A DNA stretch of 64,000 bases, from assembly GCA_037974965.1 (NCBI GenBank), contig JBBPFI010000007.1, positions 62,001 through 126,000 of the forward strand, in the 5' to 3' direction. Position 1 is the stretch's first letter, and the number at the start of each line of letters is the position of its first letter. Made by a program: the position numbers and the translations under genes. Below the pieces are notes generated by a model. That model searched no databases. It was not told the DNA's origin and worked only from the letters and a program-made list of their open reading frames with translations. The DNA is from Dacryopinax spathularia. Its lineage: Eukaryota; Basidiomycota; Dacrymycetes; Dacrymycetales; Dacrymycetaceae. This document shows positions 31,904-57,955 of this stretch, piece after piece.

Positions 31904-31967
31904 TATGGAAATGAGGAGCGGACAGCTTAGTTTGGGACCCTGACAGGCTGCCAGACCCGTTGGGTCT
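31904..31967 (+). repeat. Left terminal inverted repeat and subterminal hairpin
   Basis: The 33-bp terminal repeat is at 31,904-31,936. A hairpin follows at 31,953-31,967 (AGACCC, loop GTT, GGGTCT). The target duplication GGACAT abuts it on the outside. No coding sequence is seen between here and 32,376. Confidence 0.85.
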
Positions 31968-32375
31968 CGCACACCCATTTCCTCGATATTGTCCGACGAC
32001 ACCACTGTTATTTTGGTTCCACTTTTAGCTCCGCCGTGCCTTGTCTCCGCTATAGGCGCCCAGAGTCGGACTTTACTACCTCCCGCCGTGTCCTTACAGC
32101 CGAATGCTCTCGAACTCATCGCATAGCCTGCTATGCTGAAGATCAGTTGGGAACAACACGAGGACTGGGAGGCACCGGAAGCTCCGTATGACAGCTGCCG
32201 CTTTAGCTCCCTCTTGTCTTTGGAGTGTGTTCTACTCTTGTGTCGCTCTGTTAATGTTTATGCAAAGTATTATTTTTTGTGGACGCCTCAGCACTCTTGT
32301 CCATCTGTCCACAGCAGCCATAAGCGACTTCTCATTCTTCTACAGCATACACATGGTTGCATATTCTCGCTCAAA

Positions 32376-34711
32376 CTATTCCCTGTCCGAGTTTTCACCG
32401 AGATCAAACATTACATCCACATCATCAGACGCCTTTGGAGGCGGGGTTTTCCCTTCGATCGACCGATTAGGACTGCTCTGCTGTGTCTGCGTACCGCTAT
32501 CTTTACGTCGAATGGTCTCCCATAGTAGGTCGGCAAACAGAGTTTCCATATCTTCAGCCATTCCGAAAAGCCTAGTTTTGAAACCCAGCCCATGGCTGCC
32601 GTCGGTGTTGATAGGCAGCGTCCCGCCATGCAAGGCACAGAAAGTGCAATGAGCACAAGCTTTCTTGGCCGTCACCGCGAGCCCAATCATGTTCTAGCTT
32701 GTCATCAGTTTTTCACCCCAAGTAAGAATCTGCCCCGCACCTGAAAGGCTCTCCATACAACTCCTTGTGCCTTCACCTGCCTGAAAAGATCGCAACGGCG
32801 GTCCTCATGAGTGCACTTCTTCTTGTCGCACACCGACGTGAACGTCTCATTCTCGCTGAAACGCTTCACCGCCATGAGAATGGCTTCTGAATGATATGTG
32901 CAGATAATTCCCTCAGCCGTGCTCGAATGCTCCAGCCACTTGTAGATCCGCAGGCTGTCCTTGTACTTCTTATCTTCAAAAGCCTGATTCAACCATTGCT
33001 TGATCTGCTTGACTTCCGCTTTCTCCAGCCGAAAACGGGGAGTGTTGCGCCCGTTTATGATATACACACTCGGTGTCTTCTCGGTCGCCCTTGCTCTGGT
33101 AAAGTAGCGGCCTACTTCACGAGTGGCGAACCAGAACCCACAGAGGTTGTTGAGAGTGGTGGCGACCATGGTGCCGGTGTAGTCGAGCCCGTCCATTTCA
33201 TCATCGTACTCAACCTCTAGACTTTTCGCCTCCTCCAGCGCAGCCTGGCTGATCTCATCGTCCCCGTCATCAGGCTTGAAGCCCTCCCGTGCCTTGGCTC
33301 CTGCGTTGTGTTATCTCAGTAGCTTTCTTTCCCGTTTGGCTCCCCCACATACGAAGATACTCCCAAAGACCCAGCTTGCGGTCCCCCAGGAGTTTTCGCA
33401 ACACGCCAGGAAGACTAAGCAGGTTGGTTCCCTTGTCTCCTGGAGGCCCATGGAAGAGGTTCGCCATCACCTCCAGCGTGGCGCTTAAATCCGTCAGCAT
33501 CGTCGTGAACGCCTCGCTCGTTAGGATGGTAATCCCCTTGTCGTGATCACTAATCGCCTGAGCTGAGACTTTCAAGCGATCCAGAAGATAGGCCAGAAAC
33601 GCGGCCCACGCGCTTGCGTTGTAGGCTGAGAACAGTCCGTATGTGATCGCCCCCTCTCTGCGCGTCAAAAGACCCCAGTTGACTGGGACGCCCTTTACGG
33701 GCACTCGATGCTTCCTCAACCACCTAAGACATTTTGTCACGGAGTCGCTGAGATCGACCTTGCTCTCCATTTCGTCCCCTATCATGGCCTGCTTTCGCTG
33801 GGAACCGTGCCATTGCATCAAGATCTCGTCCAGGGGCTCGCTGAATGGTCGGTCTATGGTGTCGCATCGTTGTAAGAACTTCCCCACCAAATTCCGCAGG
33901 GTATAGCGATACAATGTTCTAGTATACACTATGTCAACATTCGGTTCCCACGGTGTTCGAAGCATTCACCTATTGAATGAATCCATGGTGTCCGCCTGCT
34001 TCAGGAGACCGAATAGCGCCGCCGCATACGAGCCGAAGTCCGCGGCTCCACAGTTGTCAGCTCTAGCCAAAACCGTATCTGTCAGTAGGTACTTGGTGAA
34101 AGATTGCCCACGCACTCGGTATACACCTTCCTAGTTATGTCTTCAGTTATATCCTCGTTCCCACTGATCTGGTTGATGCTCCATTCTATCGGACCCCCGA
34201 TCCCGTCTGCTCCGTCGTACACTTCCGGGTTGCGACATATCAGAATGGTGTCACCGGCGTCATCTTCGAGCCCCATAGGTACGGACACCGTGCTGGACAT
34301 CAGAAATTCCCTAAGCGTTGCCTTCCTTGAGGTTTGCGGGGTAGCGGACGCCAACTTGGCCTCTGTCTTGGGCTGTCCGGGAGGTTGCTCCGCGGTCGCT
34401 GCCATTTTCGTCCCGGCAGTCTCGTCGCCGGGCCGTGCATTTTCAGTTTGGGCTGCGGACGTTCTGGACATCGTGACGGCGGGTATCCTGGCAAGTTCGA
34501 TATCATAGCCAAAGCAAAGCAGGAGCGCGAGGGACTTCAGGAAAAGCAGCACACAAGACTTGGTGGGTTTCCCCGAGAACTGGGGATTGCTGATGGGCTC
34601 CTGGTGCTTGCGAACTCCTTCGGCTATGCAACTGATAACCGTGGCACGCTTAGTTGGCGAAGCCAATTCAAGAAACCGTATCGTAGCAGGAGGGGGTTTA
34701 GTCTCAGACAT
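32376..34711 (-). CDS. Deaminase-like protein A with HSE and CxxC motifs
   Basis: This five-exon gene encodes about 750 residues and is carried by the giant element. After a variable N-terminus and a helical middle region (for example TLYRYTLRNLVGKFLQRCD) the C-terminal part has TYHSEAILMA near 32,850-32,880, then C-x4-C-T-H-x4-C (CDKKKCTHEDRRCDLF). After a phase-0 intron comes NMIGLAVTAKKACAHCTFC near 32,640-32,690. His-x-Glu followed by Cys-x2-Cys is the zinc-binding and catalytic layout of the cytidine deaminase fold. The spacing and the preceding KK resemble the fungal OTT_1508-like deaminase group. Assignment to that group is inference; the substrate (nucleic acid or nucleotide) is unknown. 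Gene B next door is a paralogue. Confidence 0.5.
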
Positions 34712-35050
34712 AGTCTAGGATCCGCTTGCTTGCCGAAGTTGCTCTTCAAACCGTAGTTGTTGAATATTTCTCGATATTGTCGCTCGGCATCAGTGGCACT
34801 GCCGCGGAGGCTCCTGAGTTGAGTCAGGCAACCTCATTGTCAACACGTGCCCTTGATGCCATTCCCGATTGATTCTCATTCCTTCAGATCATCGAAAGTA
34901 CGCATTACACAACTAGGTTACAGGATACTAGAGGTGAACAAGTTACAACAATTCCGTTCCAAACCAGTGAACACCGATTCCACCCTAAGAGACGCATGCG
35001 AAGTCCATCCTGAAGCCGCGCAGTAAAGCATCTGCGCTGGCGTGATATAC

Positions 35051-37312
35051 TTACTCAATCGTCATTGCTGATTGGTCATCTCCTTCCCAGCAAGTACCGC
35101 TCATTGCTCTCTCGACTAGTTCCACACAGTGCCGTTCCAGCATGTGAACCAGGTCGGACTCCTCCTCTTCCGTCATACCGAACGGCCAGCACAGAGGGAC
35201 GCCCGTCGGCTTCAAAGGAGAATGAATACCCCTTCGTCGCTGCGACATCCAGTCGCAAAGTGCGCAGACATCTCCCTCCGGCTCCGTTTCGCGTTCCCAG
35301 TAGTTGATATTCTGCTACGCATTAGTCCTAAGGGACGTTGGTTAGAGTTGCGCCCGCTTACCTTACAAATTGCTGTCGCATTCACCCAACGCAGCTCCTT
35401 GTACAGGTCGCAACGTCCATCCTGATGCCTACACAGCCCTGTGCACAAGGACTCCGGCCCTCTTCCTTCCCGCAATGCAGCAAGCACGCTCCATGAATGC
35501 ATATTGCTCCACAGAACATCGCCCTCGAAAGAGGTCAACAGTGCTTCCAGGTCTTGTAGTAGCGGTGGCGGTAGCGCGATTTGACTGGACAACCAGACGA
35601 TGAACTTGTGGCTGATTTTCGAGTTCATCGGGAGCCCCCAGCACCTATGTAGCTGGCCTTTGAGAATCAGTTGTTCCGGTCCGTGCTCCTTGAGCTGTCT
35701 CGGGAGCTCGGCATATTTGAGCCCGATCTGACGTGCGGCTGAGATATGGCGGGCGAGATCGTTGATTTGATGCAGGCTGGCTTCCAAGAACGCCTCTCCA
35801 GTGACCTGCGAATTCTTGCCTATAATCAGACCACTCAGCTGCGAACAGACTTGTATCACAATACTGACTTGCCTCTGAGGTGCGACAGCTGTTCAAGTAA
35901 TCCGAGATCCGGGCTGGTAAGAAGACCATGAAACAGCCCGAAATTCTCCCCAGTTCCGTACGTGGCCCGTGTATGATACACCATGCTCCACAACACCTCT
36001 AATCTGCGAAATAGCGCTATGAAAACTTCGCCAATGTCCGCCTCCTTTGTCGCCCGTTTAGTCAATCTGACCAACGCACATTGCTTAGGGGTGTACCAGC
36101 AGATCGTCTCACGGCCCAGAGCCCCACACCCAACACACCCCAATCTCAGTCGCTGTCCATAGACGGCCATGAAATCGGTGTGCGCAACGACCGAAGCTTT
36201 GATTTCGATTTCCTTCAACAGCTGGGCGAGCATGTTGACCCATAATGCAAACGTGCGAGGGCTGAACTCGACGCGTCTTGTGTCGTGGTTTTCGTCCAGC
36301 ATGGCCTTCCATTGCTTGTACAGGGATTCGTTTCCATCTCGCTTGGCCTTTTCTGTCACGTACTTCATGTACGCCCATGGCGCCTCGGGTATATCGACCG
36401 TATATGCTGGCTGCAATGATGACTCCAGCTGGGCGGGTGGACGCCAACATTCCAGAACTTCTGAGAGAGATTTGCCATCCTCGTGCTCCAAACGCGCCAC
36501 CCGATGATGAATCCACCCTACTTGCTGGCGTACGATGTATTTGGCCAAACTCCTGAATCCCATCGAATGAGCAGGCCATTGCCAAGTGCTGTTGCCTGAT
36601 ACACATACCAAACCTCGCTCTCTGTCACTGTGCGGATATTATTTTCATGTGAAACAGTGTACAGGTAATTCGTGCAGGTTTCAAATGTCTTCTCAGAGGC
36701 ACACATATCCAAGGATGGGGGCCTGCTCAGGGAGCGTCAGTCCGCAACTGGGAGAGGTAAGAATTGCTCCTACCGATTAGCGAGACCGGTCTCGAGGGAG
36801 GTGCGATCCATTTTCTGAGGGGAAGTTTGATGGATATGCCATGTGACGCTGGGCCGATCGCAATGTTGACAGTACGAGCCAGGCGCCCATAACGACTGAC
36901 ATTGGCAGACTTCCAAGTCGACGACGATCATGGTCAACCGATCTCGCGCGATAGCGGCTGCCACCGCTGCTGATGATCGCTCAATGAAGCCAGATTCTAT
37001 CTGTCGCAGATGTGCATATGAGGCCAGGACGCGCGACTCCCTTCTCGGTATATCAGCATTTGACGGCTGACAACTAGGCGGTGATTTGGGAGAATGCCGA
37101 TCGGTAGGTCTCCTAACCTGACATAGTGCGCCTAGATATGAGGATACCGTGCCAAGCAATATCGCCGCCTCAAAAGCAGTTAGACCAGCACAAGTAGACA
37201 ATGTAGGCGTTTGAGGCATGACAGACTTGCCAACCCTGCCAATGGCGGTTACTGTAGATGTGTCATCTGTAGGTGCTGTGCCATCGTCCGCGCGCGTCAA
37301 GCACGGATGCAT
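35051..37312 (-). CDS. Deaminase-like protein B, paralogue of A lacking the catalytic Glu
   Basis: This multi-exon gene lies directly upstream of A on the same strand. Its C-terminal part mirrors A: NMHSWSVLAALREG stands where A has TYHSEAILMA, CRHQDGRCDLYKEL matches A's CTHEDRRCDLFRQV, and after a phase-0 intron at the same place NINYWERE...VCALCDWM matches A's NMIG...CAHCTFC. The Glu of His-x-Glu is replaced by Trp, so catalysis is unlikely and a regulatory or binding role is possible. One intron (near 35,820-35,872) appears to start with GC (GCAAGT) in place of GT. A Cys-rich N-terminal stretch (CQCQSLWAPGSYCQHC near 36,850-36,900) may bind zinc. The start ATG at 37,312 is provisional; another in-frame ATG lies at 37,219. 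Confidence 0.5.
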
Positions 37313-37595
37313 CCCCGACCGCGCGCTAGCCGGGCTTCTTTAGGGCTGTGCGGGAGGGTTCTTTGGATAAACGGGATGGGACGCGACGCAACTGCGTCTT
37401 CTCTAACCGCACAGCACGTACAGAGGTTATCGGATCCTAATTCTGCCCGATCGGGCGTTCCTCGTCTTCCAGTCCTACTGCTCACCACAAAGACAACAAA
37501 TCGAGCTCGCAATCCCTCTCTTATGATGACAGCCACCTGCAGAACAACTACGCGCCCCTGGGACACTCTAATGCTAACGACCTTCCCCCTTTCCA

Positions 37596-40030
37596 TCAGT
37601 CCGTCGAAACAATGGCTTTGACTACGCCAGAGACAGCTTGCTCCTGCTCCTTAGACCGCCATTTTAGGTCTTCAATCTGACTCTCATTCAGCCTGCTTAT
37701 TTCAGAGGAACTTCAAAACCTACCTTGTGGAGCCTTCCTAGCAAATGGTCCAGTACGACGTCTCCGCGCATGTCTACCCAAGGCACTGACGGGTCACAGC
37801 ACCTGTCAATGAGGGACAGTATACTGCCGGGAAGCTGTTTGTCCGGTGCCCTGGTGATCCACCGTGAGGGTAGCCTCCGAGTATACGGATCATAAGCCTC
37901 GGATTCATGGTCAGAGCCATCGCCCAAGGCGCATTCCGGAATGGCATGAGCAGGAATCTTCTTGCTGTCTGGCAGTTGCACATGACAACGGAGCAAGCAA
38001 GCCCGCAGCTCCGTCTGCCTGGACTCGCTCAATTGATCTAGGCGATGATATACGTGACGCAGCTGTATGCTCTCAGTCTAGGGCTCTTCCGCATGACAAT
38101 ATCGTGGCCTCACCTCGGGTCGGCGAAATAAGGGCGGTACAACTTCAAATACTCGCACCTTCCCCCGCCGAATTAGGTCACTCCGCACTCCGGCTCTGGT
38201 TGCTAAATGAGCTCTCCAGTCCCGGATGGCTTCCTCATCAGTACTCCCTCCTTCCGTAGAGTACTCCTCCGACATGAGCGGCTCGACAAGTACGCATGTC
38301 GGGTCCCAACCTTCTGTCGCTTTGAAAGCGGGCACGGCTTTGAGTCGCCTGTCTAGCTTCTGTACGCGGTATCAGCTCTCCGTGTCAATATGCTTGTGAC
38401 AGACGTACGCTTTTCAATCGCTGCATCCGCCGGTTGCTCTGCTTGCTGGCCAGAGCCTTCAGGTGTTTCTTAGCATCCTGCTGGTTCTGATGGGCGCGAT
38501 TCATCGACTTCCAGGTCACCTTGCTGCAGAGGCGCCGCAGATAGGCTTTGGTTATTCGATCGTTGCGCCCGCGCCATATCCTCTTCGTAGCTTCCAAATG
38601 TATCTCCTTCCAGACCCGCTGTACGATGCGTTCCCGTAGCTCTTGATTACGTTCACTGTTTTTGCAACCGCGACGGAAGTCTGGACCAATGGGGCAATCG
38701 TCTGCCCCCTCGTCGCCGGCGTTTCGGATGCTCCCGTCTGCAGCGACATCTTCTCCGCTATCATCCATATCCCCACCTTCTGCATCTCGTTTGCACGTGG
38801 AATAAGACTCAGACTCTGCGGCGTGGAATTCGTTACTAAGGGCCCTCTGCATGAAGGTTAGTACCTTCCCTTGGAAGTCGCGTTACACGACACACCAAAC
38901 AAAGAATCCGAATATCTCGCGGAACATCTTCGTCATCCTCGTCATCTCCATCGCAATCCGAGTCCTGTGACCTTCTAGCACTTCTCTCCACCGCGCCAGA
39001 GCCGTTGGTATCAGTCTAGACGATGTCATCAGTATTAAGCCCTGAGCGGAAGTTCGGCAATCCTGACCTTGCGTTTGTTCTTCCGTCCACGAATTCTCCG
39101 CGGTCCTGAATCCTGGATAGCTGGGGCTTGGGACATTGAGGTATCGGGATTCGGTGGAGAACGTCCCCGCCCAGTAGCTGCTCCAGCACCACCGCTTGTA
39201 CAGCCAGAGTGCGCCATAGAGGAGGCCTGCTTGACTTCGTCTAGCGCGCGTTGGAGAGAGAGCAACGTGGCCTTCATTCGTTTGTTCTCATCTATGAGCG
39301 TTCGGCGAGAGCTGTCATTGTCGTGTTCCTCCCCGCTTTCCCTCTCTTGCTCGGCCCTCTCCGCAAGCAATCGGGCTCGGGTACACTTGAGCTCCTCCTG
39401 CAGATTGCGGACCGTCACTTGAGCCTTTTCCTCTCGTTCTCGAAGGCTCGCGTTATTAATTTCAGCATCCCGCAGCTGGGCTTGATATTGCTCGACCTCC
39501 TCCACGTATCGCTCAGGAGGGCAGCTATTGCGAAGAGTCTCCATTTCCCCCTGAAGCTCATGAAGGCGATCCAAAGCAGCTGATAATTCGGTTCGTGCGG
39601 TGTCCAGGGCGCCCCAGGCGGTGGCCTCTGACTTCTGAAGTTCCGTTATGCGCGTCTCCAAAACCGTCTTCTCGTCCTGCAAGGTGTCCACACATGCCGA
39701 CAGATGCTCCCGCTCTGTCCGAACCTCGGCGCAAGTCTTCTCCAGAACAGCACAGTTCTCAACCACCGCTTGGTATTGCTCCTTGTAATCGTCGACCATG
39801 CCAGCGTAGATGTCTCTTGCATTGGTGGCATTTCGGCGCTCAGCTTTTTCCTCGCCGAGGCGCTTGCGCAGATCTTCGATTTGAGCTTGCAGCGGGCCTC
39901 GACTGGCATGCGCTTGCTGAGGGCCCCGGGACGTCGCTGCGCTGTTCGGTTGCCCCTGGGCGGATGCGGCTCCAGCACCTCGAGACAGCGTGGCTGTTTC
40001 TGCTGCGGTGTCCGAATCCTCAGTCCGCAT
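37596..40030 (-). CDS. Long coiled-coil protein of unknown function
   Basis: The first large exon (39,035-40,030 region) encodes over 200 residues of heptad-like coiled coil (IEDLRKRLGEEKAERRNATN and on), with a Ser/Gly-rich head and a basic segment ending RIRGRKNKRK. Later exons add an acidic patch (CDGDDEDDEDVPRD), a Lys/Arg-rich helical region (HLEATKRIWRGRNDRITKAY) and a C-terminal domain with TEGWDPTCVLVEPLMSEEY and DEEAIRDWRAHLATRAGV. The last exon ends IVSTD and stop. I do not recognise the family. A DNA- or protein-scaffold role would fit the basic and coiled-coil parts but is only a guess. Upstream exons at 40,150-40,768 may belong to the same gene. Confidence 0.5.
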
Positions 40031-40149
40031 ACGTTTCAGCCAAGTTCTAGACTCTCCGATACGAAGTACTCACTTCACCAATACCCGAACTTCCCCTCGT
40101 CAGCCTACTTCGCCTTGTCTGCTTATTGCCAGGTTCCTCCACGCGGTTT

Positions 40150-43562: not shown

Positions 43563-44440
43563 GTGAGGTGCCTAGCCGGGCAGACACTACAGGAAAATGA
43601 TACCGTTTGCGAGTGTTCAGCGAAGATAGATGCCTGAACTATTGGCAGGGCTTATCAGTACCAAATATCCCTCCACAGGTGTCTAGGCGGGCTAGACACC
43701 CAGGAAATTCATCCTCAGCCATGCGTTGTCCAGGTGTCTAGTCCAGCTAGACACCCGGGTAAGCAGCGAGCGTTGTATAAGTGTCTAGTAGGTGTCTAGT
43801 AGTCGAGCTAGATACCCCGGCTAGCGATTCTTAGAGGGCCTTGTATAGGTGTCTAGTCGAGCTAGACACCCGGGTTAGCGATTCTTAAAGAGCGGTGTAT
43901 AGGTGTCTAGTCGAGCTAGACACCCGGGTTAGCGATTCTTAAAGAGCGGTGTATAGGTGTCTAGTCGAGCTAGACACCCCGGTAAGCGATTCTTAAAGAG
44001 CGGTGTATAGGTGTCTAGTCGAGCTAGACACCCGGGTAAGCGATTCTTGAAGAGCGGTGTATAGGTGTCTAGTCGAGCTAGACACCCGGGTTAGCGATTC
44101 TTAAAGAGCGGTGTATAGGTGTCTAGTCGAGCTAGACACCCCGGTAAGTGATTCTTAAAGAGCGGTGTATAGGTGTCTAGTCGAGCTAGACACCCGGGTA
44201 AGCGAATCTTAGCGAGCGTAGTATAGGTGTCTAGTCGTTAGGGATCCTCAGCCATGCGCTGTACAGGCGTCTAGTTGGACTACACACCTGCTTATCGATT
44301 TATTAGCCACGTTCGAGCTGTAGACGTGTACAGGTGTCTAGTTCGGCTACACACGTGGTTATTGATATATTAGCAATGTTATCTCTGTAGACTCGCCTGC
44401 TTATTTCGCTGCATGAGGATCTAGTCGAGCTAGGCGCCTG
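43563..44440. repeat. 54-bp palindrome-containing tandem repeat array
   Basis: The core runs from 43,849 to about 44,240 with a strict 54-bp period; GTGTCTAG begins at 43,849, 43,903, 43,957, 44,011, 44,065, 44,119, 44,173 and 44,227. Seven units hold a full palindrome with 9-bp arms, GGTGTCTAG and CTAGACACC, around TCGAG. The spacer (CGGGTTAGCGATTCTTAAAG) varies little. Degenerate units with the same arms but other spacing extend the array to about 43,563 on the left and 44,440 on the right. There is no coding potential. It sits near the middle of the giant element, between the membrane-protein gene and the helicase gene. Confidence 0.9.
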
Positions 44441-44815
44441 TGTTCCAAGCAGGCTATATCACCGTGCACCGGAGTCAGACACATCAAAGCCTAAGCGTTA
44501 ATAGTACCCCGAGCGCCAGCTTTAATTGTGTATCGGCTGTCAATGGACGGATCCGGCGGTGTGCAGGACTCCTACCGCCGCGGCCATGTTGCATAAAACC
44601 CTTGAATGGGTGGTAGAGCGGCGAATCGGATGACAGGCGTTGGGCGTAGGAGCTTGGCCGAACGTATTTCGTGCCTCTCGAGCAAGGGACGAGTCCTGGA
44701 CACCGTGCCCCAATATCAACATTGACATTACGGAGGCGATCTGGCTGTAGTCTGGGGGCCCGCAGGCAGAATGGAGGCGGCCGCAGTCAACTTTACCGGG
44801 CACCTCAGAACAGTA

Positions 44816-46997
44816 CTATAGAACTGAATAACCTTCGGATCCGCACGAATCTGCCCCCAGGACCCGTATGAGACACCCAGTTCGCCCGTATTGTGTTGGG
44901 AGTACCCACCTTGGTAGGGTCATATCCTTGAACTTCAAGCGACTCCAGGCTGGTTGTCCGTGAAAGAGCCACGTAAGCGTGCCCTGTCCTACGTTAGGAA
45001 GCTGCCGGGTGTCCTGAGAGTAGCTGCACATGCCATATTCCCAAGTGTTACCTATATCAGCATATACCCGCGTGAACGATTGGCCCTGTGCAGTATGAAC
45101 TGTGAACGCGTAAGCAAGGTCGAGGCATATCTAATCACCGAAGTGAGTATGTCTGGTCCAATGGGATGTGCTACCTGTTCACTCATCTGAAGACGCCAGG
45201 CAGCCAGTGCACCGCTATCAGTATACACGTCCCAGTGCATTGGAGTGATCATAGTAACAACTTCGGGGTGATTACCCTTCTTCGGGAATCGCACAATCGG
45301 AAAAAGGCAGTTATTGTTGGAGAAGCTGTGTCTGACCGACCTTCCGAGGTTGCGATCGCTTGAGTCCATGCTTGGCTGCCATTGCTCATTGTTGTCTTTC
45401 CAATCGTCCGCCGTTACAAACCCAAGTACGACACCCAAGCGGCCGTTAACCAGGTGAGGATTGTCTCGCATGTTTCGCAATAGCCGTACGGCAGCGCCGC
45501 TTTTGAGGCGGACTACAGTCGGCGCCTTTAGCTTGTTGAGCCTTCTGTAAGCTAATTGCTTGGCTTGGGGAAGTGTAACAGTATCCATGGCTCGGTAGAC
45601 GTGCTCTGTCCCTGGGAGCTTGTCAAGAGCACTGTTATTGGCCTCGAGTACTTTGAAACGCGTGGAATATCTGCAACCCTGGTCAGCATCCTGTTGCCCT
45701 TCCTCGCTCGTACTCGCACATGTAAACTGGCTCCAGGCCATCGCGGTAGGAGACTGCTTGGGCTCGCGACCGAAGCGTTGCATCGGTTGAAGCGGAAATC
45801 TTCCCCTCCCTTATTTCATTTAGTATTTCCACGAGACCTGCGGGAGAGAGAGTGAGCATATTGGGTGATCTGGGAGATGTCTGATGCCTAACGATAGTCC
45901 TGCTGTCTGTACACTCGGCTCAGGGTGTAAGAATGCGGTATGAGCCATGACCAGGCTCGAGATTCGAAAGCAAGGGAGGTATCCTCTCCTTCCTCCACAA
46001 CGGGGGGCAGTTGGAAGAAGTCGCCACACAAGATCAGCTGCTCAAAGATCAGCGCTGCTGTCATGAACAAGCCACAGCTGCGCACCTGAATGCCACCCAA
46101 AGGTCTGTGGCTCTTACGTGCGGCTCTAGCAATGGCATCCAGAGCGCTAAGTAACCATCCGGGAAGCTGAGACACTTTGGCAGCTCGTCAGAGACATCGT
46201 GGCCAGGACCTTCCGCTTTGTGGGGGCGCACCTTCATCGATAATCAAAACACCTGCCCGCATCCACCGCGTTCTAGCCTCTGGGTTTCGTAGGACCTTAA
46301 ACACCATTTCTTCCTGCGTCTCTTCTCTGCCGTTCAAGCCCGCCCAACTGTGCAACGTCCTGCCATCCAGGTGGAATGCTGCTAGGCCTGTGGTAGCAGT
46401 CACCACGACAGCGTCCGGGTCGTCGCGAAAGCGTCCCTCTCGGAGAGAGAGTATAATCTGACGAAGAAGAAGGGTCTTCCCTGTGCCTTGAAGCGCCTGT
46501 CATCTATCGCAATTCCAGCCGGCACATGTAAACATACCGGCAGGTCCAGTAAAGAATAGATTGCTGCCCGAGACAACAAGGTTGTGGATGAATTGTTGCT
46601 CCTCGCTCAAGCTGGGGCTGGATGGGAAGTCCACATGAGCGCTATCAACTCCTGGATCTATCGGGCGCATGCTTCCCTCGCCAGCTGAAGTGTCCTGGCA
46701 AGGTGCATCCACATGCTGCGTATGCCCATGCCCATCTTCTTCGGGGGGGGAGCCATTGGAAAGGGGCGGTCGACTCTGTACATCCCCCCTATCTAGGCAA
46801 TCGGATGCTTGTGGATCGACAGCTGTGGACTGGTGTTTCTGCGTGGGGTGTGTGCCGATGAAGCTGACTGCAGGAGCCGGATATGCGAGGTCCAAGGGCA
46901 GTAAGCTGAGCGTTCCAGATCTTGAAACTTGGAGGAGACTTAATGCACGATGTAAACGTTGATTCTGGCGAAGTTCTTTTCGGGTAGCGGGAGGCAT
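44816..46997 (-). CDS. PIF1-family DNA helicase
   Basis: This multi-exon gene encodes an ATP-dependent 5'-3' DNA helicase. The Walker A motif GPAGTGKTLLLRQ is formed across an intron near 46,470-46,540. It is followed by VVVTATTGLAAF, LHSWAGLNG, VLIIDEGA (Walker B-like), ILCGDFFQLPPV near 46,020-46,050, LSRVYRQ, a VRLLRNMRDNPHLVNGRLG segment near 45,450, and DLAYAFTVHTAQGQSFTRVY near 45,060-45,110. This is the full Pif1 motif order. The first about 150 residues are Pro/Ser/His-rich and unrelated to the helicase. The 3' end at 44,816 is the next in-frame stop and is less certain than the core. It may serve replication or end processing of the element. Confidence 0.85.
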
Positions 46998-47249: not shown

Positions 47250-49457
47250 ATGGGAGAATCTGTTGGACTCGACCCGCATATACGAACAGCAACCGCTCTC
47301 TCCAACTCAGCCCCACCACAGCAGCGAGTTGCTCACGCAAAGTCCCGCTTGGATGGCTACACCATCGACATTCTCGCCCGTTGGGAGGAGATCTGGAGGG
47401 AGGAGAGGGCGCAAGTGCTTGAGCGGAACGGCCTAGAGGTACGAGTGCGAGAGACGATATTTTGGTCGACTAAGCTGGTGAGCACATCTACATGCTGAAA
47501 CCAGCGCGCATTGAACTCTCTGTCATAGAACGCGCTGTCTCGAGCATATAGCTACCTCCGGCTCAGCGATTGGCCCACTCCACTCAAAGAATGCGCTCGC
47601 GCCTTTGTCCGCCAGTGCGAACAGTTGAGACGAGAGAATGCAACCCTCCCTAACGGCGACCTGGCGGGACTCGACCATACTCTGCTTCCCTCCGATATCA
47701 CCTGCGAAGTGTCTTTCATCGACCCGAGGAAGGATCATACCATGCCCCAGATAGGGCCTTTCGAGACGGATGATGGTCTCCTGGCTTTGTTTTGCCGAAG
47801 TAATGGAGCCAAGGTCCAGCTGCGCGTTCCCTGGTGGGAGGGTTACCGGCTTATCTATAGCCAATTGATGGTATCCAACCTACGAAATCTTGCAACCCCT
47901 CAGCTGGATAAGGCGAACAGAAGGGCAATCACGGCATGGATCCAGCAAATGATGACTCTTTGGGTGAGCGGCCATCCATTGGATTCGGACCTCAAACTGA
48001 AACCTGTAGTTAGAACCTCACCATGGTGCATCTCGACGAGTCCCAAATGGGCCCATGGCCCGCTTCAATCCAATTGCAGTTTATCAAGGACATGGACACC
48101 ATGTTCAAGGCCTGCATACTGCTCGGCCGTTCTGATGAAAATACGCTGCTAAAGGCCAGCTATACCCCGCTTCAGTTCCGGGCGTTCTGCTTTGGTCGCC
48201 TACCCACCATCTTGGATGGCGCTCCCAAGTCAGTCCTCGGCGTGTCTCAAGCCAGTCCATGGTTCGTCCGAGATGACGATTCTGCCATGGCCAGACGAAT
48301 CGCGTATTGTCAAGCTCTGCTCGATGCGGCTTTCGGCGACGATATTGTTGATCATTCTATCGACAATCCAGTGTGGTTGAGTGGAAGGCGAGAAAGCGTC
48401 GAGTTGTACGTTTTGTACGCTACGGAGCATGTAGTAAGCCCATATTTTAGTTTCCGAGGTCATGCATAAGTAACGTGTTGGGGGTACATGCAGACTTCGT
48501 ACCTGCTTCAATGTCATATGGCACGAGTACCGCCGAGCAGTCGCCTGACGGGCTGGATATCGACTCTTCTTCTACAGCTCACCGACCTCTTATCGGGATA
48601 TGACGAGCTCCGCCTTCCTATTCCCCTGGAGCTACTGCCACTAGAGGGACTACCCGAGAAGAGTTGGTTGCTTTGTACCAGCAGCAGTGGCTTGAAACCG
48701 GCAAGAGAACACGTCATTAATGCGGTCATGTGGTCAAATGTAGCGGCGGGACTGCTGAAGCATATTGAGGCGAATGGTAAAGGACTTAAAGACACAACCT
48801 CACAAGAGACATGGCTAAGGCAGGCTACATTCTATCCAGTAAGCAACGCCAACTGGGAGCATTGGTTTCTACTGAATCATGAATATCCAGGTCGCGTTCT
48901 TCACCCTCCACCATGTAGATGCGTGCGAAGAAGCGGGTGATGATGTTAACTTCGACATGCTGTCGATCCTGCACACGGCGCATCACATAGCAGCGAACCA
49001 CTTGCCGCACATGGCCAGGCTATTGCCCGATCCAGTGGTGATCCCCAAGGCGATCCGCCAGCGTCACAAGGCCGCCTTTCGGTACACCGACCGCCAGCAG
49101 AGGGCCGATGTCAAAGGTCACACACGTAAACAGCTTGGCATCCTTCAATCTTCTCTGCGACCCCCTCAAACTACCGAAGAGGCGGGCCTTGGTAACCGTC
49201 CAGCAGGCCTGTTTGCGACAAAGGCGTGTTGCTCGGAGCCAGACCATACTAGCGAACTCAAGTCGATTGTTTCCCCCTCTTCACGCCATGCACCATCCGC
49301 TAACAATGCTAACGGCGTTGTGGCTGCTGTCCCTTTGAGCCAAGCTGGAAGGGGCGGGGTTATCAGCGACACTCGTGGAACGCTCCCCGATATCGATGCC
49401 TATGTCAGGAGATGCACTATCCGCGGGCGAATCAGAAGACAACGCTCTCACACATGA
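47250..49457 (+). CDS. Large protein of unknown function
   Basis: About five exons give a protein of roughly 600 residues: MGESVGLDPHIRTATALSNS, then RWEEIWREERAQVLERNGLE, LSDWPTPLKECARAFVRQCE, VPWWEGYRLIYSQLMVSNLR, LQFIKDMDTMFKACILLGRS, SWLLCTSSSGLKPAREHVIN and VAFFTLHHVDACEEAGDDVN. It is mostly helical, with a basic C-terminus (TIRGRIRRQRS). No known motif is recognised. It is divergent from the helicase gene (starts about 250 bp apart), so the two may share a promoter region. Exon joins in the middle (near 48,000) are tentative. Confidence 0.5.
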
Positions 49458-49585: not shown

Positions 49586-51471
49586 TTAAGGATGCTGAGC
49601 GTGAGCTGTCTGGGTTAGAGGCGGTCGCAGCAAATCATGGACTTCAGGTATTAGTTGACCTGCAACGGGCTCGTGGCGCTCTTCGGACTCGAGATGTAGA
49701 CCTGGCGCGGGATACATTACGTTGCTATCCTCTTCGTCTGGCTGGTAGGCGAGGATCATATACTCGTCTGCTATGGTCATGTTGACCTCGACTTGCGATG
49801 CCAGGTTGGACAGGATCTGGTCACGGGTGGGCGAAGACATGAAGACAGCTCGCAGTTCGAGAAAGACTGGCCATAGTGACCTTAAGGTGATGGCAGGGAA
49901 GCCCCCAGCTGGAATATTGTGAGCCAACTTCTTCCGATAGAGGTACAGACTTACCTGCATACAAGGTTGAAATCTGCAGTTCGAATGCCTCAGGGACCAG
50001 CTGGAATACCGGATGATCTGGAGGGGCATAAAGCTGCTCGACCGCAGCCAGATCGTCTTCGGTAACCATTACCTACTTGATTTAGATCGTGAGGTTGATT
50101 GGCGCTGTGACGGCGTACTTACCCGAAAATCTCTTGCATGCTTGTACAGGTGGGGATGTCGAATGATGTGCTCCGGAACGCCAATTGGGAGCAGCTTATT
50201 TCTGTCTGCTCGTGGTTTGCTGGCATTATGCATGGCGACATACTCATCTAACTTCTCTCGCAAGAAGGGAATCACAAGCCATCGAAAGATGAACCTGTCA
50301 CCCGATTAGCGCATCAGTCGTAGGCATTCCGAGCTGGACAAGGCTACGCACCATTGCAGAGGGTCTTGCCGGTCATAGAATCCCCTGCGGACGCCTTCCG
50401 CAAAAACGTCTTCATATCCAGGAGTGAACTCCCGACGAAGTTGGCTCCATTTACCCTCGCATCTCACGTTAAGATGACCTCCGCACCAAACGTGCTGACT
50501 CGTGCCAATGAGGGATGGATCGAGGCTTTGACGCAGCATTGTATGTCCATTCGCTATGCCATTATTTTCGGATCCCGGATCGCTCTGTGTCACAAGAGGA
50601 ATTCCTGCATGGCGGTAACTGTGATCAGTTCGCAGTACACGAGAATGAACACCGTCACCTTTATATTTGCGCGCCATTTCAAGGTAGAAACTGAATATAA
50701 GGCGAGGATTCGAGTTCGTCCACCAGGGCCGTACCCACATGAGGGCCCCGGAGAAGAGCTCCATACCTAGGTGGAGGCAGATGCCGTGACGCTTCCACTT
50801 ATCGTGTTGGTCGACAGCGACGACCGCGAAGACGCCGGCGGTCCAGAACTGCTTGCGCTTCAGCCGATTGGCCTTCCTCTGTGCCACCTCCTGAGGATAG
50901 TTGGCGCGTTTGTATCCCGCAATGGCAGTCCTAGACCATGAATGAGAATATCAGGGCACGTAGAAAAGGTGGAGACTGACTCCGATGCCAACACGCCCTT
51001 CATGCGAAGCCATCCTTGCATTCGCTTGATGCCCGTATGTGCACCATAGCCCGCCTGCCTCAGCTCCTCGATATACGGGCCAATGGTGTCGGCGTTCAGA
51101 CCCTGTTGTCGCACACTGAGTAGGCCTAACCCCTCGCGGCGTCGCTTGACCGTTTTGGCACTGCATGTCTAGAATGAGGAAAGGTTGACGAAGTGCGGCA
51201 GACTGACGTACGACAGACCCCATCCATGCATCGCGCCCTGGACCTCCTCGAGAACGGCCTTAGCAATGGCACTGTCGTTCCATCCGTACCCATGGTAGCG
51301 CTGGATTAAAGGAAGTAGCAATGCGTCTGGAACTGGAAGCGAACTCGAGTGAGCGTGGTGAGTGAGTCTACACCATCTGGGGAACTGACCAGATGGGAGA
51401 TGTTGATTGGTGCGACGCTGACTGGCGGAACGCCACTGCGTAGGGACGTCCGCGACAGTCCGAGTCGACAT
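49586..51471 (-). CDS. RVE-type (DDE) integrase
   Basis: This multi-exon gene is the likely integrase of the giant element. An N-terminal helix-turn-helix-like region (YIEELRQAGYGAHTGIKRMQ) precedes an RNase H-like integrase core: FAVVAVDQHDKWKRHGICLH near 50,800-50,850 (first Asp), IPLVTQSDPGSENNGIA near 50,560-50,610 (second Asp), and CEGKWSQLRREFTPGYEDVF near 50,400-50,460 (likely Glu, 40 residues after the second Asp). Downstream are FRWLVIPFLREKLDEYVAMH and the basic KPRADRNKLLPIGVPEHIIR. It resembles the integrase-core family widespread in Agaricomycetes rather than retroelement integrases, and no reverse transcriptase lies nearby. The start is the first ATG in frame. Confidence 0.8.
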
Positions 51472-51952: not shown

Positions 51953-54576
51953 ATGGACCAGGTCGCTATAGGGGAGTCTATCTTGACGCCCCTGGGCATT
52001 ACCTCGATCGCCAATGAACCGCTATGGTGCCGACGCGGCCCCCGTTGTTTCACATCGCCCAATGAACGTGGTTATATGGCTCCTGGCCAGCCGTATCAAG
52101 TCATAGCAGTGAATGGCGAGGCGGTCCCTGTGTGCCCGCCGTGCTATGCGCATTACGTGCAGAAGGCTGGTACTACAGTTCAAGCCACGACCATGCGTGC
52201 GGAGACGTCGAGGAATATGAGCGCAGCCGATGGCGCTTACGCGATGCCCGTTGGGCCCAACCCTAAGACAGTGAGTCGCTTCAATGAGAATGCTAAACGC
52301 AAAGGTGAGTATTCGCCCCACATGTCTGATAGAGACACTGACCTCTATTTCGTGACTGTCACAGTGACCGGTCGCTCTGTCGTCCACTCTATCGGATCAC
52401 TCCCTAAACTACGGGGACCATCTAACTCCATGGGCATCACGAGCCTCCTGAAGCCGACCTTCCCTCGCACCAGAGGCTACACGTCAAACCATCAGTATTA
52501 CGAATCTGACAAGGAGAGAATGGGTCGCCAGGCATATGCTCCACTGCAGCCTGAAACACTCTTCGTCAAATTTGAGGTTCATTATGTGGAGCCCGGGCGA
52601 GCTGGGTCCCAACTGTATGAGGTATGTGCGTCGAAATGGCCAGAAACCTGCTGAGCTCAGCTATTGGAGCAGAACCTCCAAGACAAGCACGAAATGGCGG
52701 CCAAGAGCACGCCGCCTCAGATAAAGGCCGCAATATTCAGTCTGATGCAAAGACCGCTGATGGAACGAACACAAGGATATCCCCTGCGAATCGAGGATTT
52801 CAACTTGCGAGGCAAGGATACGACGGACTACGATCGATTTCCTTCTGACGAGCCCCTCTTCTACAAGTACTGCTTCGCCACGCCTCGCGGCAAAGCAAAG
52901 GACACGGTTCAGGCGAAGTTCCAGTACAACAAAAGCTTCGATGTCCGGCTGATAATGCAGCGCGAGGTTTTCCTTGGCATCGAAGAGCACATCGACAGGA
53001 AAGCGAGGGAGAACCTGGCGTCTACTAGAGCATATATCTCGCCTGTGGCGACCGCGGCTTCGGAGGAGGCAGAGTTCCAGCGGCTAGAGACAAACACGCT
53101 GCCTACGGTTTGGGCGCACTCCGGCCTCAGGAAGAGACGCGGCTCTGAGGGCACAGCCGAGGTACGCCCATTTGGCCTTGGTCGGAGACGATGTTTGGAA
53201 ACCTTCTGACTACCGGAGTAGATTTCTCCTGGGGCGAGCAAGCGATCCTTGCACACGTACCCCACTTCGAAAGATACCCCATTCATTCAGCGCCCCGCAT
53301 TCCCCAACCCAGCGGCTATACGGGATGCGCTGATGGGAAGCGCAGCGAGCGTGGCGGAGGATAAGATACCATCAGGTGAGAAAATCTCCTTTAAGAATTG
53401 ACGGTCCACTGATGCCTTCCACAGGTGTCTATCGGGAAATGGGCATGTTCATCGTTGCTCCGGTGCTGGACTTTGCAACGCTGGTGAACGCGAGATACCG
53501 GCTCAACATCGACTGGTTCCAAGCCGGATGGACCGCCGAACTACAAGTCGACGAGCGTGTGGAATCCCTACTGGGCAGGGCCGGCAGCTTCAAGACAGCT
53601 CATCCGGGCGTGCTCGGTCTGTATCTTCGGGAAAGAGCAGGCGAGACTGGAGAGGAAGACAGCTTCTTCAAGCCTGGCGAGCGCACGCCAGTTGCCGTCA
53701 AACGGTGGACAATTCAGCACGACAACAAGAAGGCTCGGGTTGGAAAAGCGAAGGAAGAACTCAAACTAGCTGGTGAGGAGACCTGCCTCATCTGGGCAAC
53801 CTCACTGCAGCGCGTCGTTTCGGATGAAGTCAAATCGAAACTGGAAGCGGCACACCCAGACAGCCTCATGAAGTCTGTGGACTGGCCCGAGGTCAGGTTC
53901 GTCCACTCAGGCCTCTTCCGAGTTAGTCAGACGAAGGTGACCAAGGAGCGCAACCAATCGTCGAGGCAGCACCAGGTGTACCTGGTGGAAGAGCTAATCG
54001 ATGTGGCTGAAGAGCCAGACGGCTTTGTCAAGTACTTCCACAACTCTTCGCCTATCCCCCGTATCGTGCATGGAAAAGAAGGCGACATCGCTTGGTTCCT
54101 GTCTTTCGCCCAACACCTGCAATACGAGAGGACAGATGGTCTGGTGTATGTCAGTGATTATCAAGGTGAGTGAGCACGGCATCATAAGTGGGCACATCAC
54201 TGACATGTAATCCCAGGATCGAACGGTCTGCTGACTGACCCACAGATCATGACAAACCCGTATGTTCACCGCTCCCAAACCTATAGGTAAGTGCGCTGAG
54301 CGTTTTTTCAGGACGCTGCAAGGTGTGCTGTTCGGTGGAGGCAACGTGGGAGATGCAGTTACTACGTTTCCCGTGGAGCACATATGTGGCAAGTACTGCG
54401 TAGCATTCGGCCTTCGATCCCTTGCAGCGAATGGTGTGGAAAGGTCTGGGGAAAGAGGGTGTATGTCAAAGCCTGACGAGCCTGACGGGCTTCCATATGA
54501 GCCGAACAGCGCATCGAAGCCACACACCGCTATCAGACCAGACGACTTAGGGTGTCAGCCGGACGGAATGGACTAG
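51953..54576 (+). CDS. Alpha-type (MHCK/EF2K family) protein kinase
   Basis: About six exons give about 640 residues. The N-terminal part has a Cys-rich patch (CRRGPRCF and VCPPCYAHYV). The C-terminal half is an atypical alpha-kinase domain: FRVSQTKVTKERNQSSRQHQ and VYLVEELI (N-lobe), FLSFAQHLQYERTDGLVYVS (near 54,100), DYQGSNGLLTDPQIMTNP across an intron near 54,160-54,260, then FGGGNVGDAVTTFPVEHICG and KYCVAFGL near 54,331-54,413. Family members carry DLQG, LTDPQI, the GxGNxG loop and a His/Cys zinc site at these places, so the fold looks complete. Alpha-kinases are expanded in basidiomycetes; the substrate is unknown. It is divergent from the integrase gene. Confidence 0.82.
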
Positions 54577-54877
54577 GGAGCGTGCAGTTGTCAAGAAGGG
54601 GGAAGGCTGTTCCTGAGCGAGGTTAGGGGACTTGCGTCGTCCGGTAACCGTTCTCGACCGGGTTGAGCAAATATACATTATTCTAGTAACTTTAATTGGA
54701 TATTACACTTTTTCATGATATCATTTCAATGTGCGAATTGAGTAACGCGCAAATGGACGCGGCAGGATGTCCTGGGAATTGGGGTTCGTTCTCATGGACT
54801 CATGAACTCCTGTTGATTTGGAAGGCGCATGCGCCTCGGATGTCATCTTACTCTACTACTACCACAAGCTATACAGC
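54577..54877. other. Intergenic, alpha-kinase to F-box-like gene
   Basis: About 300 bp contain no gene. The stretch near 54,670-54,725 is AT-rich and could hold the alpha-kinase 3' end and the start of the next promoter. Confidence 0.4.
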
Positions 54878-56409
54878 ATGGCAGCCCTCGGTTCACTCCT
54901 CGACCATGCAGATCTACGTGACGAGATTCTGTCTTACCTGTCTCGCAAAGACCTACTATGCCTTGCCGCTGTTGCTAAGAAGATGAGTCGAGCAATGGAG
55001 GTCCTATGGCAGAACGTGGATGAGAAGATGCTGCGATCACTCGTGAGAGCTCTTGTGGAGGAGCCCCTTGGCGATCAAACTGTAGGCGGGGGGTAAAGGT
55101 TGTGATCTTTCGCCATCTGACATATCTGCAGGCGCTTGCTCGAGTGAAGTGGTACTGCGAGCGGACAGTCAAGATCGAGCTGGGCACGTACACGAGGAGG
55201 GAGACTAGCAAGCTCTATGACGACCTCACGACGTTGGCTTACGCTCTGGCACTCCAACCATTCCCTCGGCTACGCAGCGTCTTCGTAGAGGTGACCGATC
55301 CTCGCGGTCTCCTTCTGGCGACTAGGGTGGTCGGTCCGACAGTCACGCGCATACATCTGGCTCTCTGCGAAAAGAGGAACACGCATGACCGGGAGGAGTG
55401 GCGGGAATGTTTCGCCGAAGCCATCAAGCACGTGTACACCCATTGCAAAGATATCGCCTACCTCGCCGTAACCGGTACCGCCACGTTTGCACTGGACGAC
55501 AAAACTATGGCGGCTTTGAAGCAGTTTAAGGCGCGCTCGAGCTTAAAACGTGTATCGCTCGCCATCGAGTGCTGTCTCCAGTCGGTTTTCGAGGCTTTGC
55601 AGGAGCATCCTGCCATCGAGCGACTGGACTTTGAAGGAAGCATTCTCCCTTCCAGCGGCTTCGCCTACTTCTCGGGAGCTCAGACACTACTCCCATGGGC
55701 AAATCTGAAGCATCTCACCCTTGATATGCGAGCTAGGGCGGCGATACTTCTGCTGGAGAGTTTGAACGCCCACCTGAAGACCCTCGACGCCGCGTTGACT
55801 TTCAGGTGCTTGCAAGATGAGTACGAGGAACTCACGCAAGTTCTCGGCAAGAAGTATGCAAGTGTAGTTGAACTCCGCATCGCGGTCCACCCTTACTACC
55901 CAACCTCTTCGGACGACGAGCTCGACTTCGGAAAGGCGACGGCTCCCCTGCAGAAATGCAACCAGCTGGTGCGTTTGGCCTTCCATCACTACGCCATGCA
56001 GCCACTATTGGTGGAAGAACAAGCCCTCGAGAATCTCATACGGCATATGATGTATCTTGGTCGGCTAGAGTTGCTTTGGTCGGCTACCTACCTGAAGCTG
56101 AAGAAGACTGAGAGGCGAGGTTACAATCTGGACCAAGGAATCTCGCTCGAGACCTTGAGTAACCTGATCCACCTCTGCCCAACGCTTCGATCAATGAGAC
56201 TGACTGGAATAACGTGGGACTTGCCACTCACTATACACAAGAGCAATCGCGGCTTCGTCGTACAAGCTACGTGGGTATCCGGAAATCCTGTTGTGCTGGC
56301 GAGAATCTGGCGACGAGCATGGCCCGACTTGAGGCTTGTGATCGACAGCAACGCTCTGGCCGCGAAAATCATCAGACTGGCACGGCTGGAGCTGGCCCTT
56401 GGGAGCTGA
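54878..56409 (+). CDS. F-box-like protein with a long repeat-type C-terminus
   Basis: Two exons (54,878-55,081 and 55,132-56,409) give about 490 residues. The N-terminus reads LRDEILSYLSRKDLLCLAAV and AKKMSRAMEVLWQNVDE, the pattern of an F-box, which would bind Skp1 in an SCF ubiquitin ligase. The rest has leucine-rich-repeat-like strands (LKRVSLAIECCLQSVFEALQ, AIERLDFEGSILPSSGF, LKHLTLDMRARAAILLLESL, LCPTLRSMRLTGI), as in many basidiomycete F-box proteins. It has the same orientation as the alpha-kinase and sits near the right end of the giant element. The target is unknown. Confidence 0.65.
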
Positions 56410-56848
56410 GTTGCTGCGAACCAGAAGATCTGAAGGAAGGACTTCACAAAATGGCCTTGCTTTAGGTGAAGTGGGGTGACGATCTGGTACACGGACTGTG
56501 AGAGAGATGGTCTAATGGGTTTCGCAACGGTTATGTACTGGTAAAATCGCATGTAGAACATGGAGGCAGATATTCATTTGCGACATCAATGGCTGGCAAC
56601 TTTAATCACAGTGGGAAGACGGTTGTAACTTTCTATAACTAGCAACAAGCGCAAATATTACTAAGAGAGTACCTCCGAAGAGCGTCCTCAGGTCGCAGAC
56701 TGTAAGGCGGCGGAAGTAGCGGGCTAAAGGTCTACTGCGATTGACGGAGGGAGCACAAAGACCGCATGAAGTCGATATCGCCAAGTATGTTAGCGCAAAT
56801 CAAGGCAGTGAAATAGGAAATTGCATAAAATATGGACATGGTCACATC

Positions 56849-57360
56849 TCACAAATGATGGGGGAAACGTGCGAGTAGCGTATCCAAGTCCTTTGCCCAC
56901 CGCGCGCAGAGAGCAGCCGCCTCCTCGTCCTGCTGAAAGAAAAGGTTGTATTGCTGCACTAGAAGCTCGGGTACGGTTTCGTTTGTGGCGTGCTGAAGTG
57001 CTGATTGGATATCTCTCCATTGCGAGGCATGTCGTACTTTCAGAGTCGCTTTCTCCTCCTCAATTAGAAGATCGAGTTGGGCTAAGGAGGAACAGAGGAC
57101 TGAGTTGTACGGGGTAGCATTCATGCGACCTAGGATTGGTGGTCACGTCGGAGTATTTGAGGCGCGAATGTAACTGACTTACAAAGGCGTTCCAGCGCCT
57201 CACGGCACTGATACTGAGTAGGACAGAAGTATAAGGCGGTCGACGCGAATTGCGGCTGTCGATATTGCCCTAGTCGGCGGGCGAACGGATAGTGGCATGA
57301 CATCTGGATAATGGTGGGGATGTAGCAGAAGATGTCGGGGCTCAGGTCAAGGAGGAGGGA
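56849..57360 (-). CDS. Small hypothetical helical protein
   Basis: The last exon (up to about 57,126) encodes RMNATPYNSVLCSSLAQLDL, then EEEKATLKVRHASQWRDIQS and NLFFQQDEEAAALCARWAKD, ending FPHHL and stop. An intron with GTAAGT and CCTAG ends joins it to an upstream exon reading LSPDIFCYIPTIIQMSCHYP and FCPTQYQCREALERL. The 5' end is not resolved; the first ATG seen in that exon lies in MSCHYPF. It is probably a helical protein of 150 residues or more. No family is recognised. The stretch from here to the right terminal repeat shows no clear gene. Confidence 0.4.
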
Positions 57361-57881
57361 AGCTTTCTATAGTAAGACGTACTGTATAGTCTCAAGGGCG
57401 GTGGCTTGATGCGGCACAACAGTGGAAGCCTGAGGGCAGCGGGTGGACCAGAAGGGTATCGTGCGCTCCCACCTGGACACGAAAGATGAAACTGTCGCCT
57501 TTTGTGACGCGGATATGAGTGAAGACGCTATAGGAGGAGGAGACAGGCAAGCGGCGCCTTTGCAAATGAGGAATGCATCGAGTTAACAGGCGGAGTGTAC
57601 GCATCCTGTACTGACAGACATTAGGCAACTCCAGTGGCAAGACGAGACAGTCAGGCAGAAAAGACGGCTCTGCCAATGCCCAACTCAGGTAGCAGAAGAA
57701 GTGAGAGTAGGTTCGCAATGACCGAGTTCGCGGTAGTCAGAGACAATTGGACTACGCGAACAGGCGCCCGTCATACACACCAAGACAGATTTTGATTCCG
57801 ACCTGCGGAGTGTCAAGCGGGCTCGAAAACTAATTGGGCTATTTTCTGAGGACTCTGGGTACGAAGGGTCGACTCTGGGCT

Positions 57882-57955
57882 GGTCTGGGCAGACCACTCA
57901 GGGTGCTGTCCACTCCGCGGCGCCCAAACTAAGCTGTCCGCTCCTCGTTTCCATA
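57882..57955 (-). repeat. Right terminal inverted repeat and subterminal hairpin
   Basis: The 33-bp terminal repeat is at 57,923-57,955 (reverse complement of the left end, one mismatch). A hairpin GGTCTG, GG, CAGACC lies at 57,882-57,895. The target duplication GGACAT follows at 57,956-57,961. Confidence 0.85.

Follow-up and report, generated by a model that had tools for sequence, protein, structure and literature searches.

The closest described relatives of the element reported here are the IS3EU transposons (IS3EU/GingerRoot). In the consulted parts of the two relevant papers, these are characterized by TA..TA termini with duplications of usually 6 bp (PMC10045372) and, for the TET-carrying IS3EU of rust fungi, by TAYGG..CCRTA termini, ends of >30 bp, and 6-bp duplications, alpha-kinase and transposase being oppositely oriented throughout the TET-carrying group (PMC12730594). 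We analyzed a 64,000-nucleotide stretch of the genome of the basidiomycete Dacryopinax spathularia, referred to below as the window (C7:62001-126000 in an assembly of 29.2 Mb and 24 contigs, numbered here with the prefix C), in which positions 31904 to 57955 very probably represent a giant IS3EU-type DNA transposon. An earlier note on this DNA had described the same interval as a young giant mobile element that fits no named class; the latter claim was not supported, as the termini, the duplication length, and the opposed integrase/alpha-kinase pair are those of published fungal IS3EU elements, as far as the consulted parts describe them (PMC12730594, PMC10045372).

The interval constitutes a single transposition unit with two 33-bp inverted ends (32 of 33 positions matching; all coordinates are listed in Table 1), and the ends and the perfect 6-bp duplication around them, both proposed in the earlier note, were borne out. 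With up to three mismatches allowed, the end pattern was found in just these two places in the window, and two matches were obtained in none of 100 shuffles. A second full copy, 25,950 bp in length, was located at C2:2941183-2967132; it has perfectly matching ends (33/33) and its own duplication (CCTTAC), and the BLAST similarity between the two copies begins and stops at the inverted repeats. Between them, 255 substitutions (0.98%) and nine indels were counted, so that, judged from sequence, "young" would be a fair description in the sense of approximately 1% divergence between two 26-kb copies. The recent movement previously suggested is likewise supported by this low divergence, by the intact duplications, and by the window's integrase, Pif1, and geneA (see below) models, all of which are open.

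After splicing, the integrase model scored 33.3 bits against PF24764 (cut-off, 26). In its predicted catalytic triad, 40 residues separate D227 and E268, and D168, D227, and E268 were each kept in 13 of 14 aligned rows (the exceptions being P0213, P0122, and again P0122, respectively). Before D168, the invariant or near-invariant columns of the alignment hold no histidine or cysteine, in agreement with IS3EU, in which the DDE core lacks an upstream HHCC motif. The integrase is most similar to proteins of Calocera (49 to 54% identity for the top four), and among the matches listed, the 120 that carry a name presumably all belong to basidiomycetes, as far as the names were recognized. The alpha-kinase model starts approximately 0.6 kb away; the Alpha_kinase family matched the model from the C2 copy with 38.4 bits (cut-off, 21.3), and the open reading frame (ORF) of the longest kinase exon in the window reached 17.2 bits by itself, below the cut-off. 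Across the assembly, 99 integrase rows were reduced to 26 loci and 49 kinase rows to 18. Loci were counted from match lists, whose numbers, here and below, represent minimum values; as copies of the same element depend on one another, probabilities calculated for the associations are overstated. A kinase was present within 10 kb of 18 of the 26 integrase loci, in head-to-head orientation at 17 of the 18.

The same termini bound a whole series of relatives in this genome. A search with the stricter end pattern gave 14 matches, forming seven convergent inverted pairs of 16.3 to 30.9 kb (reversed-pattern control, 1 and 1). Their 6-bp duplications are perfect and differ among all seven pairs, and the 50-bp flanks look unrelated by eye. 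Thus, of the further inverted pairs that the earlier note had suggested looking for (15 to 40 kb apart, with 6-bp duplications and the same integrase and helicase), six were found beyond the window, the helicase being present in only three of them. A looser pattern yielded 62 matches (control, 10 and 10), comprising the 14 already mentioned, three compact pairs of 8.7 to 8.8 kb, one 47-kb pair, 15 short pairs (0.6 to 3.2 kb), two additional left starts, and eight unpaired matches. Perfect 6-bp duplications flank all four of the compact and 47-kb pairs and hence all 11 full-size elements (8.7 to 8.8, 16 to 17, 26, 30 to 31, and 47 kb), and 11 of the 15 short pairs have 6-bp duplications as well; in total, target-site duplications were found at 26 of 26 bounded elements (0.6 to 47 kb). 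TAYGG..CCRTA termini occur in all 11 full-size and 15 short elements, TAYGG with up to three or two mismatches having been demanded by the search patterns; the clean end identity is shorter in the 16- to 17-kb and 8.7-kb families than the 33 bp of the window element. Integrase and alpha-kinase matches lie inside all 11 full-size pairs. None of the listed integrase matches lies inside the 15 short pairs, which we therefore took to be nonautonomous. Pif1 and geneA matches are present inside 4 of the 11 full-size pairs, namely, the two of 26 kb and the two of 30 to 31 kb. At C2:461 kb, two inner left starts without a matching duplication were dropped and the outer start was used. For the C8:803-kb element, the end was located by its likeness to that of the window element. 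In the parts examined, geneA and the kinase were detected by tblastn, whereas relatives of the F-box and coiled-coil genes were not; the likeness of a predicted coiled-coil gene in these parts to that of the window is by eye only. Tandem repeats there were confined to short arrays with other units. When the spacing in the search pattern was allowed to vary, no further end families were revealed, leaving ends located for 11 of the 18 integrase-kinase loci. The 47-kb pair (C8:493616-540653; 47,038 bp; duplication CCATCT; ends matching at 27 of 30 positions), with integrase and kinase near its right end, could be either one giant element or a composite.

Compared with the TET-carrying fungal IS3EU families (consulted parts of PMC12730594), the element is alike in its 6-bp duplications, TAYGG..CCRTA termini, DDE transposase, and opposed alpha-kinase, and its 33-bp ends lie above their 30-bp mark; what sets it apart is the presence of Pif1, deaminase-like, and F-box-like genes and of the palindrome array. 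It measures 26 kb. Several points weigh against placing it in IS3EU. First, no TET/JBP family was found in our Pfam scan, which took in 129 of the 226 stop-to-stop ORFs of at least 60 amino acids (aa), and it is for elements with TET that the TAYGG..CCRTA and alpha-kinase marks were published; in those elements, the TET/JBP gene lies between transposase and alpha-kinase. The missing TET/JBP thus excludes the TET-carrying subset but not IS3EU as such. Second, the assignment compares the element with published descriptions of the class. Third, the window integrase exceeds the PF24764 cut-off only once spliced: its unspliced exons were not above chance in Pfam (best E, 0.02) until splicing by eye resolved it, and a genome search with PF24764 at an E value of 0.1 left the element's integrase unlisted and listed three relatives weakly. 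Furthermore, the integrase frame, open in the window, is interrupted in the C2 copy (S410 to stop), 8 of the 26 integrase matches lack a kinase within 10 kb, one integrase-kinase locus of 18 departs from the head-to-head arrangement, and 4 of the 15 short pairs have 7-bp duplications. The element might be taken for a member of a new superfamily of giant elements whose likeness to IS3EU, in the length of the duplication and the letters of the termini, is merely convergent; Pif1 and deaminase genes are absent from the consulted IS3EU text. We consider such a superfamily very improbable: termini, duplication length, and an oppositely oriented alpha-kinase partner are all as published, and the same genome harbors compact elements of 8.7 kb that share the end motif and have related integrases.

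Polintons also generate 6-bp duplications, and the element shares its RVE-type integrase and giant size with Polinton/Maverick elements. In the main text of a review on giant transposons, which does not mention IS3EU, Polintons are described as DDE-integrase elements of 15 to 25 kb that can reach 40 kb (PMC6431247). However, no polymerase (protein-primed PolB), capsid, packaging ATPase, or protease family was found in the 129 scanned ORFs, and the ends differ, starting with TATGG over 33 bp; with the alpha-kinase partner and the compact 8.7-kb relatives added, we see next to no likelihood that this is what remains of a Polinton-like or virus-derived element after loss of the polymerase and capsid, and Polinton membership was rejected. 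Starships are likewise giant, fungal, and endowed with many genes between their ends (in part after PMC13066641). The element has a DDE integrase instead, and no tyrosine-recombinase captain appeared among the scanned ORFs, which led us to reject this class as well. Helitrons combine an HUH Rep with a helicase and leave no target-site duplication; while both encode a Pif1-like helicase, the element does have a duplication and no Rep family was found in the scanned ORFs; on these features, a Helitron was rejected too. Nor do we favor the Pif1 gene being a piece of a Helitron, as its product is approximately 25% identical to two long ORFs of the same genome that were judged by eye to be of the Helitron type, and only 1 of the 26 integrase loci is near a long-ORF Pif1 (2.0 expected). 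Zisupton-type elements, with 8-bp duplications versus 6 bp here, and Ginger, also on duplication length, were ruled out. The absence of a captain, polymerase, capsid, and Rep that the earlier note had remarked on therefore holds for the ORFs scanned.

Besides the integrase-kinase pair, the element carries a Pif1 gene and the deaminase-like gene, which we call geneA. The Pif1 model matched PIF1 far above the cut-off of 25.9 bits, and its 20 best BLAST matches (of 60 of the PIF1 type) are 33 to 41% identical. Genome-wide, 113 Pif1 rows were condensed into 90 loci (23 second pieces left out), which we divided into long-ORF loci and split-gene loci, the latter having an open frame of <500 aa and including C4:512 kb and C11:421 kb despite longer frames; 62 geneA rows gave 20 loci. 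Split-gene Pif1 was found near 16 of the 26 integrase loci (1.9 expected), geneA near 12 of the 26 (0.9 expected), and 18 of the 20 geneA loci are near a split-gene Pif1 (1.45 expected). Within 25 kb of the 18 integrase-kinase loci, split-gene Pif1 and geneA are both present at 10 and both absent at 8, with no locus having only one of them. We infer that the two genes form a co-occurring accessory module, which larger elements would gain or lose as a whole, although 2 of the 20 geneA loci, which lack Pif1, and 17 of the 44 split-gene Pif1 loci, around which 25 kb of sequence gave no match to integrase, PF24764, or geneA, argue against a strict module. The module would be dispensable for movement, since 8.7-kb and 16- to 17-kb elements without detected Pif1 or geneA have clean duplications (unless the products are supplied in trans). 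For other branches of PF24764, 38 rows gave 22 loci (12 second pieces, three rows coinciding with integrase loci, and a weak row at C14:243 kb were left out), 8 of which are near a split-gene Pif1 (1.6 expected) and 2 near geneA (0.74 expected). A strong PF24764 integrase of another branch has both geneA and Pif1 matches nearby at C11:400-421 kb and at C4:512-534 kb, which looks as if the module had moved between integrase lineages.

The movement of small elements without the module, the varying gene order among loci, and the 17 Pif1 loci that stand apart would also fit an explanation in which IS3EU ends have captured Pif1 and the deaminase-like and F-box-like genes as mere passengers. We regard this as unlikely, given the both-or-neither distribution, the association of geneA with split-gene Pif1, and, in small counts, nonsynonymous divergence (dN) below synonymous divergence (dS) for Pif1 and geneA between the two 26-kb copies. 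Seven gene models together showed 44 synonymous and 45 nonsynonymous changes plus one new stop (dS, 0.0169; dN, 0.0054), with a noncoding divergence of 0.0110. Values of dN and dS were 0.0043 and 0.0169 for the integrase (6 synonymous and 5 nonsynonymous changes), 0.0043 and 0.0248 for Pif1 (11 and 6), 0.0032 and 0.0215 for geneA (10 and 5), 0.0061 and 0.0115 for the coiled-coil gene, 0.0068 and 0.0109 for the alpha-kinase, 0.0072 and 0.0194 for the F-box-like gene, and 0.0070 and 0.0077 for the 47250..49454 gene; with so few changes per gene, these values test purifying selection on single genes weakly.

On the basis of its sequence, geneA is a probable, though not proven, OTT_1508-like deaminase gene. 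We read the domain at 11 of the 20 geneA loci (the window and ten others, spliced by eye), and H-x-E and C-x-x-C are present in all 11, together with further invariant C and H residues. PF14441 (OTT_1508-like deaminase) was matched by 8 of the 11 domains singly at E values up to 5, the best being 0.0018. The window's own domain had no PF14441 match at an E value of up to 5, the full-length protein matched no Pfam family at 0.5, a protein search gave nothing at 0.001 among 8,000 candidates scored, and a PDB profile search with the domain returned one weak, unrelated match. The motif and the homologues agree with the label "deaminase-like" in the earlier note. OTT_1508-like deaminases described in Neurospora (OLD-ZAO antiviral RNA editing) have the same H-x-E ... 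C-x-x-C center (consulted part of PMC12754623); geneA differs from them in its location in a transposon, an extra C/H cluster, and a C-terminal QSSPN motif.

The integrase and Pif1 models were spliced by eye; our custom gene finder merged or missed genes of the element. Apart from helicase, F-box, and alpha-kinase families, no family in the scan of the 129 ORFs was better than an E value of 0.02. Among the remaining gene labels given earlier, those of integrase, PIF1, and alpha-kinase (the last on the C2-copy model) passed their cut-offs and the coiled-coil look was confirmed, while the F-box-like score stayed below the cut-off (21.0 versus 24.3 bits). Relatives of the coiled-coil gene, the 47250..49454 gene (which has a 206-bp deletion in the C2 copy, at approximately 48741 to 48946), and the ORFs at 35 to 37 kb were found only in the two 26-kb copies (21 of 152 candidates scored). 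Five further relatives of the F-box-like protein (48 to 67%) lie at C8:329-339 kb, C1:2510-2520 kb, C3:996-1018 kb, C4:990-1005 kb, and C17:264-280 kb, approximately 8 to 14 kb from a split-gene Pif1 and with no element-type integrase detected within 25 kb. All five are thus near a split-gene Pif1 (0.36 expected), one is near geneA, two are near a long-ORF Pif1 (0.39 expected), and none is near an element-type integrase; perhaps they represent another giant element type that shares genes.

The element also holds a central array of palindromes (Table 1). With up to one mismatch, these occur at 20 sites in the whole assembly, 9 in the window copy (all exact) and 11 in the C2 copy, with none outside the two copies and none in the reversed control; a general host repeat was therefore ruled out. 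As single-stranded DNA, the array (801 nucleotides) outperforms 20 shuffled versions in folding by 12.5 standard deviations, as is to be expected of palindromic repeats. It might serve as a binding site or have an origin-like function.

In the mechanism we propose, the integrase would recognize TAYGGAA-N9-GGACAGC, perhaps aided by the subterminal GAGYGGACAGC, and would join the ends at a 6-bp stagger, by a cut-and-paste or an IS3-like copy-out route. Pif1 would help to replicate or repair long intermediates, the deaminase would target host silencing or rival nucleic acids, and the F-box-like protein would act on host protein turnover. The smaller and larger relatives in the same genome hint at how the 26-kb element may have grown, and with one end motif spanning 0.6 to 3.2, 8.7 to 8.8, 16 to 17, 26, 30 to 31, and 47 kb in one genome, the route from a small transposon to a giant gene carrier becomes directly testable. 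We tentatively speculate, while holding it rather doubtful, that basidiomycetes have a DDE-driven counterpart of the Starships, an IS3EU element grown giant via the Pif1-deaminase module and the central palindrome array, which would replicate long intermediates or counter silencing; if true, so-called cargo genes would belong to the machinery of mobility or persistence.

The finding places a Pif1 helicase and a deaminase-like gene in a DDE transposon. In titles and abstract openings of the open-license literature searched (supplements aside), we recognized no IS3EU element with Pif1 or a deaminase. The class itself is known, but the pairing of an IS3EU-type integrase with Pif1 in a giant element, which the earlier note had called new, was not found in these searches, and that part of the novelty stands; as far as the searches reach, the form of the element, a giant IS3EU with an accessory module, is new. 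Giant fungal elements are commonly searched for by their captains, and a captain-based search would miss these DDE elements. One example of a search via tyrosine-recombinase captains is given in PMC13066641 (consulted part).

Table 1. Features of the 26-kb element and its flanks (window positions)
Feature	Position	Strand	Remark
Left target-site duplication GGACAT	31898..31903	.	Perfect 6 bp
Left terminal inverted repeat, 33 bp, with GAGCGGACAGC	31904..31936	+	
geneA, probable OTT_1508-like deaminase, 678-aa model, 5 exons	32376..34711	-	H-x-E, C-x-x-C in last two exons
geneA exons	32376-32693, 32759-33300, 33353-33840, 33970-34062, 34116-34711	-	
ORFs without assigned function, pieces of 226/260/189 aa	35215..37339	-	No Pfam family at E 0.01
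Coiled-coil-looking protein, 361-aa model, acidic C-terminal tail	38833..40030	-	
Repeat array with palindromes GGTGTCTAG-N5-CTAGACACC, mostly 54-bp spacing	43669..44444	.	
Pif1 helicase, 613-aa model, 8 exons, open in window	44805..46997	-	PIF1, 115 bits
Gene without assigned function, 372 aa in first three model exons, more ORFs beyond	47250..49454	+	
DDE integrase/transposase, 506-aa model, 8 exons	49586..51471	-	PF24764; D168-D227-E268
Alpha-kinase, 645-aa model (684 aa in C2 copy), 3' exons uncertain	52076..54550	+	Head-to-head with integrase
F-box-like protein, 493-aa model	54878..56409	+	Match below cut-off
Subterminal second end-motif copy GAGTGGACAGC, right end only	57905..57915	-	
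Right terminal inverted repeat, 33 bp, 32/33 versus left	57923..57955	-	
Right target-site duplication GGACAT	57956..57961	.	Perfect 6 bp

Elsewhere in the window, a small Tc1-type element with perfect 34-bp inverted ends around a 358-aa ORF (DDE_3, HTH_Tnp_Tc3_2) occupies positions 27655 to 29016, and a 572-aa ORF in which a MULE transposase domain is combined with a SWIM finger (25733-27451) lies between two of the repeated genes that had been labeled GST. A 680-aa ORF at positions 3082 to 5124 has a hAT dimerization domain, and interstitial telomere-like CCCTAA repeats are found at positions 7550 to 7615. Finally, two related genes in inverted orientation, which look like glycoside hydrolase genes, are located at positions 89 to 2361 and 19211 to 22827, with pieces that are 73 to 91% alike.

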